This document shows, one piece after another, positions 37,286-40,024 of a stretch of 43,497 bases of DNA. The stretch is taken from positions 1 to 43,497 of IMG/VR virus record IMGVR_UViG_3300044960_000409. The stretch is one strand, 5' to 3'. A program made the position numbers and the translations under genes. The stretch comes from a virus. Each line of letters opens with the position of its first letter. The stretch's first letter is position 1. Below the pieces are notes generated by a model. It saw nothing but the letters and a program-made list of their open reading frames with translations, was not told the origin of the DNA and did not search any database.

Positions 37286-38201
37286 AGAGGTGAGACAAAT
37301 GGACACACTGCCAGTCAGGTCAGAACAGTCGGCTGCCCTTCAGCGCAAGGGATTCAGTCCCGACGAGATTGCAACCATCAAGAACAGCCTTATGCCGGGC
37401 TGTAGCGACGCGGAGCTGAAGCTGTTCCTGCTGCGCTGTCAGCAGAGCGGCCTGAACCCGCTGAAAAGCCCGCCCGAGATATGGGCCATCCCGTTCAAGA
37501 AGAACGTCGGCACACGCGACAACCCGCGATGGGCCACTGTCTATGTCACACACACGAGCATTGACGGACTGCGGGTGGCCGCATTCCGGAGCAGGCACAT
37601 CACAGGATTCCTTGGCACCACCTCGCCGCAGTGGTGCGGCGAAGACGGGCAGTGGAAGGACGTGTGGCTGTCCAAGCAGCCGCCAGCCGCCTGCCGCGTC
37701 GGGGTCTACATGAAAGGCGTCCCGGAGCCTGTCTACACGGTGGTCCTGTGGAGTGAGTTCGAAAGTGTGCGGAAAAGAGCCGGGGCTGACGGCGGCAGGT
37801 GGGCAGAGATGCCTTCCCACATGTTGGCCATAGCGGCGGAGAGACGGGCGCTCAGGAAGTGCTGCCCCAACCTCTCGGACCTGCTGGGCGACATAGAGGC
37901 TGTCGAGGCCGGAGAGGCCCCGCCATCGGTCCAGCAGCTGGAGGCAGAAGCACTGCCCGGCGAAGTGCCTGATGCCGCAACGGAGGAGGCGGAGGCCGTA
38001 GACACGGAGACGGGGGAAGCTAACTCGCCCGGCACGCACCTGGAGGCATTCTTCAGCGCGGCCAAGAACTCTGGAATCCCGTCACGCGGGGCAGCCCGCG
38101 CATGGATGAAGCGCGAGTTCGGAACCCTGCCAGAGGAGGCCGATGAAGAATCGCTTGAGGCTGCTATCGGGGTTCTGATGGAGGCCACAAATGGAACGTA
38201 A
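37065..38201 (+). CDS. bet: Zinc-ribbon fused to Bet/RecT-type recombinase, 378 aa
   Basis: Single-strand annealing recombinase. From Met79 (ATG 37299, with GAGAGGTGAG upstream) the sequence follows the Red-beta family: MPGCSDAELKLFLLRCQQSG, EIWAIPFKK, THTSIDGLRVAA, and later WAEMPSHMLAIAAERRALRK with CCPNLSDLLGD. The same frame extends upstream without a stop to TTG 37065, preceded by GGAGG, and encodes CPKC...CMAC, a zinc ribbon, plus a basic helical linker. The product may be a 378-residue fusion, a 300-residue Bet, or both. The C-terminal about 90 residues are an acidic linker plus a small helical domain. It acts with Gam encoded downstream; no partner exonuclease is recognised. Confidence 0.85.
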   Translation: MQKRWLCPKCNVMEVRREGLMCMACYSRSWTQELPPEKALRWKHQLRAEELDRNLRRQGMDRRQRQKALRMITREVRQMDTLPVRSEQSAALQRKGFSPDEIATIKNSLMPGCSDAELKLFLLRCQQSGLNPLKSPPEIWAIPFKKNVGTRDNPRWATVYVTHTSIDGLRVAAFRSRHITGFLGTTSPQWCGEDGQWKDVWLSKQPPAACRVGVYMKGVPEPVYTVVLWSEFESVRKRAGADGGRWAEMPSHMLAIAAERRALRKCCPNLSDLLGDIEAVEAGEAPPSVQQLEAEALPGEVPDAATEEAEAVDTETGEANSPGTHLEAFFSAAKNSGIPSRGAARAWMKREFGTLPEEADEESLEAAIGVLMEATNGT

Positions 38202-38755: not shown

Positions 38756-39068
38756 CGTGTATCTGTGGATTGCAGTGATGCTTGTCGGCATCGGTTACAT
38801 CGGAGGTCTGGTCTCTGGCCACGCGCTCGGGTACCAGACAGGACGCGACCGCGTCCTGGCGCTGATGGAGGAACAGACGGCCATCAGCTACGAGGACGGG
38901 TACGCTGATGGATACGTCGCTGGCGCCAGCCAGAAAACAGACAGGGCATACAATGAAGGCCTCATCGAAGGAGCCGTCCAGATGCTTCGCATCTACAGCA
39001 CTGAGGGCGGCGAGGCGATGCGCCGACAGGTCCGTATCTTGCAGGGAAAGGAGCCGCAACCACGATGA
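38748..39068 (+). CDS. Membrane-anchored small protein, 106 aa
   Basis: One N-terminal transmembrane helix (VYLWIAVMLVGIGYIGGLVS) and a cytoplasmic or periplasmic helical tail with Gly-Tyr-Asp repeats (YEDGYADGYVAGA). It overlaps the methyltransferase start (ATGA). Function unknown; the spaced DGYxxGY pattern resembles glycine-zipper-like repeats seen in small phage membrane proteins. Confidence 0.75.
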   Translation: MRSVYLWIAVMLVGIGYIGGLVSGHALGYQTGRDRVLALMEEQTAISYEDGYADGYVAGASQKTDRAYNEGLIEGAVQMLRIYSTEGGEAMRRQVRILQGKEPQPR

Positions 39069-40024
39069 AAGTGGCGTCGCTGTTTGCAGGGATAGGCGGG
39101 TTCGACCTTGGCTTGCAGAGGGCTGGCATGTCTATCGAACTTGTGTGCGAGATTGACCCCGCCTGCCAGGATGTGCTGCGCCGCCACTTCCCGGAGGCGC
39201 GGCTTGTGGACGATGTAAGGGAGGTTCATATTGAACCCGGATCAGTTGACCTTATTTGCGGAGGATTCCCCTGTCAGGATGTGTCACGAGCAGGGGCTAG
39301 ACGAGGACTCGACGGAGAACGTTCGGGGCTATGGTTTGACTTCCTACGCGTTTGCGTGGATTCAAGGCCTCGATGGGTCGTGGTCGAGAACGTTCCGGGC
39401 CTTTTATCCTCCCATGGGGGCAGGGACTTTGCCCGAGTGCTTCAGGGGCTGGTCGAACTCGGGTATAGCGTATGCTGGAGGATTCTGGACTCTCAGTACT
39501 TCGGAGTCCCACAGCGGCGCAGACGTCTCTATCTTGTCGCACATCTTGGAGCAGGATGTGCCGAGCAGGTACTATTTGAGCCGCACGGTCTGCGCAGGAA
39601 TGCTGCGGCGGTCAGACCGGCTGGGCGTAGAACTGCCGTGTCATTTGCGACGGATTCTGGAGGACACTGCGCGGGACTGATGATGGCAGTCAGGCCGCCG
39701 TGCTACTGGGATGGAGGCCAGACTGCCGACACACTGGATGTCTCAGGGCTGGTCAAGCGCCAGACGATGCCTGAGCGGAGGCGCTTTCAGGCGGTTATCG
39801 TCCAGGACGCTGAGGGCAGGCAAAGGCTTCGCCGCCTCACGCCGCTGGAGTGTGAGCGGCTTCAGGGGTTCCCCGACGGCTGGACGGAGGGACACGCCGA
39901 TGCGACACGCTACCGGATGCTTGGAAATGCCGTGACGGTACCGGTAGCGGAATGGATCGGCCGCAGGATAATCGCGGCCCACGGTCACGGCAGGGAGGAC
40001 TGCAATGGTGAAAATCACATCTGA
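39065..40024 (+). CDS. C5 cytosine-specific DNA methyltransferase, 319 aa
   Basis: Methylates cytosine at C5, probably shielding phage DNA from restriction. All key motifs are present: motif I LFAGIGGFDLGL (6-17), motif IV GGFPCQDVS with catalytic Cys70, motif VI VVVENVPG (Glu108), motif VIII VPQRRRR (148-154), a variable target-recognition region (about 165-255), and motifs IX/X RLTPLECERLQGFPDGW and RMLGNAVTVPV. It starts at ATG 39065 overlapping the upstream gene. A second reading frame (39231-39680) with its own ribosome site is embedded in it, which may constrain both sequences. No cognate restriction enzyme is present. Confidence 0.95.
   Translation: MKVASLFAGIGGFDLGLQRAGMSIELVCEIDPACQDVLRRHFPEARLVDDVREVHIEPGSVDLICGGFPCQDVSRAGARRGLDGERSGLWFDFLRVCVDSRPRWVVVENVPGLLSSHGGRDFARVLQGLVELGYSVCWRILDSQYFGVPQRRRRLYLVAHLGAGCAEQVLFEPHGLRRNAAAVRPAGRRTAVSFATDSGGHCAGLMMAVRPPCYWDGGQTADTLDVSGLVKRQTMPERRRFQAVIVQDAEGRQRLRRLTPLECERLQGFPDGWTEGHADATRYRMLGNAVTVPVAEWIGRRIIAAHGHGREDCNGENHI
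39217..39225 (+). promoter_or_regulatory. Internal ribosome binding site for the overprinted gene
   Basis: AAGGGAGGT, five bases before TTG 39231, within the methyltransferase coding sequence. It is one of the best Shine-Dalgarno matches in the early operon, and the main argument that the embedded frame is translated. Confidence 0.7.
39231..39680 (+). CDS. Overprinted protein inside the methyltransferase gene, 149 aa
   Basis: A 149-codon frame, shifted one base from the methyltransferase, starts at TTG 39231 with a near-ideal AAGGGAGGT ribosome site (39217-39225). The same bases encode GGFPCQDVS in the methyltransferase and EDSPVRMC here. The product is not low-complexity: it has FAWIQGLDGSW, SGADVSILSHIL, SRYYLSRTVCAGMLRRSDRL and VELPCHLRRIL. 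From memory, phage proteins with an EDxPVR N-terminus and a YYLS...C.GILRR...LP C-terminus are common next to phage C5 methyltransferases, so this looks like a genuine, recurring overlapping gene. Function unknown. Confidence 0.75.
   Translation: MNPDQLTLFAEDSPVRMCHEQGLDEDSTENVRGYGLTSYAFAWIQGLDGSWSRTFRAFYPPMGAGTLPECFRGWSNSGIAYAGGFWTLSTSESHSGADVSILSHILEQDVPSRYYLSRTVCAGMLRRSDRLGVELPCHLRRILEDTARD

Follow-up and report, generated by a model that had tools for sequence, protein, structure and literature searches.

The window analysed here, which is the whole stretch of DNA, is a virus record of 43,497 bases. It contains a complete gene for a C5-cytosine DNA methyltransferase, called alpha below. 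The identity of alpha is clear: it matches PF00145 with 224.7 bits (E=2.6e-66, the gathering cut-off being 22) and also the dcm family TIGR00675, and its alignment with M.HhaI covers the N-terminal half together with motifs IX and X. Upstream of the gene is one for a RecT-like annealing protein and downstream of it one for a Mu Gam-like protein, and these neighbours place the methyltransferase in a replication or recombination module. On the minus strand, a 239-residue open frame (37320-38039) lies antisense to the RecT-like gene.

Entirely within alpha there is a second open frame of 149 codons, called beta below, which has a ribosome binding site of its own. This arrangement had been pointed out in an earlier reading of the DNA made without database searches (the sequence-only reading), and its coordinates, its frame and the ribosome site all proved to be correct. 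The same reading observed that the codons of the catalytic GGFPCQD motif double as EDSPVRM in beta, which the sequence confirms. It further characterised a family of such proteins by an EDxPVR start and a YYLS...GILRR end. The latter belongs to a conserved C-terminal domain and is a real signal, but the EDSPVR start is weak evidence and was discounted, because it is largely forced by GGFPCQD. The real family signal is the combination of the N-terminal QLTLF with a C-terminal domain of the form LSxxLE..YYLS...GxLRR..RG..LP. The features are collected in Table 1.

Table 1. Coordinates of the methyltransferase gene, the embedded gene and their sequence features in the window
Feature	Positions	Strand	Basis or remark
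alpha, C5-cytosine DNA methyltransferase, 319 aa	39065..40024	+	motifs I-VIII, IX and X; PF00145, TIGR00675, M.HhaI alignment
Shine-Dalgarno site AAGGGAGGT of beta	39217..39225	+	5 bases ahead of the TTG
beta, embedded gene, 149 aa, TTG start	39231..39680 (stop ends at 39680)	+	+1 frame relative to alpha; inside 39065-40024
QLTLF codons, beta residues 5-9, sliding-clamp-type motif	39243..39257	+	matches QLxLF
GGFPCQD, catalytic motif IV of alpha	39260..39280	+	sequence
EDSPVRM, beta frame	39261..39281	+	
conserved C-terminal domain, beta residues 96-149	39516..39677	+	AlphaFold2; strongest synonymous constraint
motif IX of alpha, RRLTPLECERLQGFPDGW	39830..39883	+	alpha frame, 3' of the overlap; aligned to M.HhaI
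motif X of alpha, LGNAVTVPVAEWIGR / LGNAVTVPVAEWIG	39920..39964	+	aligned to M.HhaI

A single genome says little about whether such a frame is coding: when the synonymous codons of the window gene are shuffled, an equally long +1 run is obtained with p=0.027. Relatives were therefore gathered by way of the methyltransferase protein, avoiding bias. For all of the coding tests they were picked through the methyltransferase frame, and so there was no selection for similarity in the +1 frame; this gave 51 diverged viral genes (55 for the counts of starts and motifs). The chance expectations came from synonymous shuffling or resampling in which the methyltransferase protein and its codon usage were kept. 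Methyltransferases lacking the +1 ORF were sought as a control set (query L129), which yielded only six loci and was too small; its place was taken by frame +2 and by the codons on either side of the overlap in the same genes.

The results demonstrate that beta is a real, conserved, overprinted gene, far beyond chance. Over the 51 relatives, the length of the +1 ORF gives a combined Fisher p of 5e-43. Between window codons 75 and 196 there is not one +1 stop in the 51 genes, where about 138 are expected, while +1 stops outside the overlap are at roughly the expected level or above it, and stops in frame +2 are kept at roughly the expected level. Amino-acid identity in the +1 frame reaches 0.605 at codons 165-180, against 0.196 expected from resampling, and over codons 165-195 it exceeds that of alpha itself (0.605 and 0.574, compared with 0.331 and 0.231). 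Four-fold synonymous differences are 0.70-0.75 outside the overlap, which is near saturation. Inside it the values drop, to 0.40-0.46 over window codons 120-165, to 0.244 at codons 165-180 and to 0.117 at codons 180-195, and then go back to 0.72. Across codons 165-195 the first position of alpha is the most variable and the third is the least, as is characteristic of a +1-frame gene. A similar synonymous drop is found in a set gathered via the +1 protein, which is biased and is not relied on here. The relatives share ancestry, and z-scores calculated from them overstate their independence and should be read as upper limits; the saturation of the flanking sites means that the sample is deep despite this.

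One could still argue that conservation of the methyltransferase, or GC-rich codon usage, produces the +1 ORF incidentally, given the unimpressive length test in the window alone, and given that the likeness between this family and another embedded family (described below) is fully explained as a shadow of alpha. The argument is refuted by the resampling, on the counts of stops, on +1 identity and on synonymous differences alike, and its probability is negligible. A test of synonymous constraint in the overlap had been suggested by the sequence-only reading, which held that the proposal would fall if synonymous variation showed no reduction and if no homologues occurred outside the shadow of methyltransferases. 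Homologues outside that shadow were indeed not found, but the reduction is strong, from 0.70 to 0.12.

The signals at the 5' end of beta point to a start of its own. An ATG with a Shine-Dalgarno sequence is present in the start region of 26 of the 55 relatives (5.0 expected), and any start codon with a Shine-Dalgarno sequence in 41 of the 55 (11.1 expected); the starts are concentrated at window codons 47-58. The same TTG is present in relative L090, with the Shine-Dalgarno sequence TAAGGAG at the equivalent position in the alignment. The enrichment suggests that translation of beta begins at its own start, within the methyltransferase mRNA. Alternatively, ribosomes might shift from alpha into the +1 frame, to give alpha a different C-terminus and no separate protein. 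In keeping with this, the +1 frame of the relatives is often open 5' of the proposed start, and in three loci (L089, L150 and L218) downstream motifs are in the beta frame. Such a shift is nevertheless highly improbable, because the start and Shine-Dalgarno sequence are enriched at the 5' end (the 26 of 55 just given), because the N-terminal motif is selected, and because the constraint spans the overlap and does not begin at one shift site.

The family is widespread. Using tblastn with beta, homologues were identified in 131 phage and 520 plasmid records, the plasmid matches being mostly P1-like dmt genes on E. coli plasmids, and a search of IMG/VR with another family member found 433 relatives (viral contigs). 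Bacterial genomes of many phyla also carry homologues, including in prophages. The sequence-only reading placed the homologues beside methyltransferases, and here it has to be corrected: essentially every relative is inside one, in the +1 frame. This is the case for all eight of the first annotated matches inspected, and for 60 of 64 distinct MM1-type loci in an automatic test, the four exceptions being methyltransferase loci with displaced or broken frames. Candidates for free-standing copies, in Bifidobacterium (L187 and L190) and on Lactobacillus johnsonii plasmids, were rejected as frameshifted or split methyltransferases. Two different L. johnsonii plasmids of one strain (L250 and L251) each have a frameshift, at nearly the same point, that splits the methyltransferase and leaves the +1 domain intact, representing either a split enzyme or decay.

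Beta is nearly always left unannotated. The exception seen is Streptococcus phage MM1 (DQ113772), in which orf14 lies entirely within orf13 (the alpha subunit) and is annotated as 'C5 methyltransferase beta subunit'. The window family aligns to MM1 beta with an hhalign score of 144 (E=2e-24), against 63-84 for synonymous-shuffled controls, and judged by this comparison the window beta and MM1 orf14 are true homologues, beyond the shadow of alpha. The two loci have the same organisation, with beta in the +1 frame inside alpha, an alpha that keeps motif IX, a homologous C-terminal domain, and a clamp-type motif near the N-terminus of beta (QMTLF in MM1). MM1 beta differs in having a shorter C-terminus, without the GILRRAEKRGK-type helices, and its status as a subunit is taken here from its annotation. 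The PHROG family phrog_16143 ('DNA methyltransferase', 139 aa) matches 40 of 42 members of the window family. It is apparently the same protein as beta, called as a gene in some phages, under a label that is silent on the overlap and on the function. On these profile matches the window beta belongs to the MM1-type embedded beta family (phrog_16143). The suggestion of a conserved, poorly described overlapping family is thus well supported, with the reservation that the family is not wholly undescribed, since MM1 orf14 is annotated; in a literature search, no description was found of the breadth, the selection signature or the clamp-type N-terminus of the MM1-type betas.

A structure for beta was predicted with AlphaFold2 using 55 homologues. 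Residues 111-149 have block means of pLDDT between 93 and 98, with helices at residues 118-131 and 137-148. Residues 1-100 average below 50, and the N-terminal half to two thirds of the protein is predicted to be disordered. A model from the single sequence was poor. When the single-chain model was searched against the PDB for similar folds, the best match had E=4, to sigma-factor helices at noise level, and a Pfam search with beta matched no family. We also looked for the YYLS domain in the alpha frame of other methyltransferases; none was found, and the profile does not match alpha. Going by its position, the helical C-terminal domain is likely to contact alpha where the DNA-recognition domain begins.

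The location of motif IX provides a clue as to the function of beta. Three layouts were found. In layout A (the window, MM1 and 153 census loci), motifs I-X are in alpha, and the clamp-type motif and the C-terminal domain in beta. In layout B (L127, L139, L146 and L167), motif IX is in beta and absent from alpha, which keeps motif X, and beta ends 21-64 residues past the beginning of motif IX; for sequencing error to explain this, each of the four unrelated contigs would need a pair of shifts that compensate each other. Layout C was sampled by the alpha frame (query: the alpha frame of L168) and comprises 73 non-redundant phage loci in which alpha has no motif IX. In at least 58 of the 73 the +1 ORF ends in NPxWVEWLMGFPxGW, a sequence that can be aligned with motif IX (hhalign P=1.4e-4, probability 52%). 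In phage Lily the annotation gives this ORF as a gene internal to the methyltransferase. Separately from these, loci L089, L150 and L218 have motif IX in the beta frame and an alpha that ends without motif X, which may be a split like that of M.AquI or a frameshift.

Two-polypeptide methyltransferases are known. The beta polypeptide of EcoHK31I is reportedly encoded in another frame within the alpha gene, in work by Lee, Kam and Shaw from 1995. In M.EcoHK31I, alpha carries motifs I-VIII and X, and the small beta polypeptide carries only motif IX (PMC3404938). Set against the published description of this enzyme, the window is similar to M.EcoHK31I (and M.EaeI) in having a large alpha with motifs I-VIII and X and a small beta, and to M.EcoHK31I in that a different frame of the large polypeptide's gene encodes the small one. 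However, motif IX is found only in beta in M.EcoHK31I, whereas in the window it is in alpha and beta has none. The window is therefore a variant and not a strict member of the EcoHK31I type, because its alpha keeps its own motif IX; layouts B and C do correspond to M.EcoHK31I.

The homology with MM1 and the presence of motif IX in related betas suggest that beta is the small subunit of a two-polypeptide C5 methyltransferase, and give substance to the earlier suggestion that the family perhaps partners the enzyme. Since beta is integral to the enzyme where it holds motif IX, it is most simply read as a subunit in layout A as well. It counts against this that the window alpha has every catalytic motif and could act alone. 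The contribution of beta in layout A is less certain: it might help structurally where the recognition domain begins, act as a clamp tether, or do both. With motifs I-X in alpha, in the window and the 153 census loci, there is no missing motif for beta to supply, and beta could instead regulate or inhibit the methyltransferase or have some other role apart from catalysis, for example limiting activity or adjusting its timing; a disordered N-terminus with a short motif would fit such a role. We consider this rather unlikely, given that beta is found only within methyltransferase genes and that in four relatives it holds the motif IX absent from alpha, so that there it must be part of the enzyme. 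A further suggestion is that beta is an unrelated functional protein, such as an anti-defence protein or a clamp poison, which merely uses this genomic slot. It has no Pfam family, and it might use a clamp-type motif to seize the clamp, not to assist methylation. The presence of motif IX within beta at some loci makes this improbable, as does the observation that no free-standing copies are seen and that the gene, in phages and bacterial genomes of very different kinds, always resides in a methyltransferase. The reading that we prefer is that beta is probably the translated small polypeptide of a two-polypeptide C5 methyltransferase, with an N-terminus that would dock on the sliding clamp.

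A second +1 family is found in C5 methyltransferases without motif IX (L255-L334, L165, L168 and L254), ending in LNPTWVEWLMGFPLGW. One of its members has tblastn matches in 1,521 phage records, and the family shows strong synonymous constraint. The profile of the window family resembles that of the NPxWVEWLMGFP family with E=5e-17. Homology of the two was rejected, as the similarity is fully reproduced by shuffling synonymous codons and is a shadow of alpha; because the common alpha explains it, shared descent of the window and layout-C betas is not claimed. The same control left the match to MM1 standing.

Some loci have additional insertions. The dmt gene of phage P1 (L007, 877-3915) has an intein-like insert of about 340 residues, with Hint and LAGLIDADG domains, exactly between the P-C and the Q of the catalytic GGTPCQ motif. 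The +1 beta frame of P1 opens only 3' of the insert, and P1 beta therefore seems to be without the usual N-terminus. In L131 and L134, methyltransferase codons 141-368 contain a second extra ORF in frame +2, HNH-endonuclease-like by eye; the alpha frame is open through the insert, and the +1 beta ORF is split around the frame +2 ORF.

The N-terminus of beta reads MNPDQLTLFAED, and QLxLF is the consensus for binding to the bacterial beta sliding clamp (PMC4549789). Ahead of the catalytic shadow, 26 of 55 relatives have the motif Q..[LM]F, where alpha and codon usage predict 1.05, and about half of the GGFPCQ relatives have no recognisable form of it; neither the motif in reverse nor other positions gave any such signal. 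At the equivalent place in GGTPCQ-type enzymes, Q is present in 71 of 113 (14.3 expected) and F three residues after it in 89 of 113 (28.5 expected). The match in this set is looser, the fourth residue being usually F and the fifth varying (W, S, L). Streptococcal phages have QMSLF or QMTLF further upstream, above other residues of alpha, which implies that the motif is not tied to one alpha motif. In the AlphaFold2 model the QLTLF segment has a pLDDT below 50 and is predicted to be disordered.

From the match to the consensus and the enrichment of the motif, QLTLF of beta may tether the methyltransferase to the clamp. The disordered N-terminal part, with its QLxLF-type peptide, would dock the complex on the host sliding clamp, and newly replicated phage DNA would then be methylated at the fork. 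We propose tentatively, as a real possibility, that the family as a whole is a clamp-binding small subunit which links methylation of phage DNA to the replication fork of the host, by means of a tether overprinted on the catalytic domain. A short peptide, the PIP box, tethers the C5 methyltransferase DNMT1 to the sliding clamp PCNA and thereby couples C5 methylation to replication. If our reading of beta is true, the logic is alike, in that a C5 methyltransferase is tethered to a clamp by a short peptide. The likeness is a functional analogy only: in our case a separate, overprinted subunit carries the peptide, and the partner would be the bacterial DnaN.

It is rare for DNA phages and bacteria to have long overlapping genes on the same strand that are backed by firm evolutionary evidence. 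Beta is found again in hundreds of records from phages, prophages and plasmids, P1-like plasmids included, and gene callers almost always skip it, so that anyone who clones, recodes or mutates such a methyltransferase alters two proteins unknowingly. The annotation of the MM1 beta subunit was already known; what is new here is the QLTLF at the N-terminus of beta that matches the sliding-clamp consensus. If our reading of beta is true, many 'solitary' C5 methyltransferases of phages are two-subunit enzymes. If QLxLF works as predicted, it would explain how phage DNA is methylated in step with replication, and the complex would be a bacterial counterpart of the tethering of DNMT1 to PCNA.
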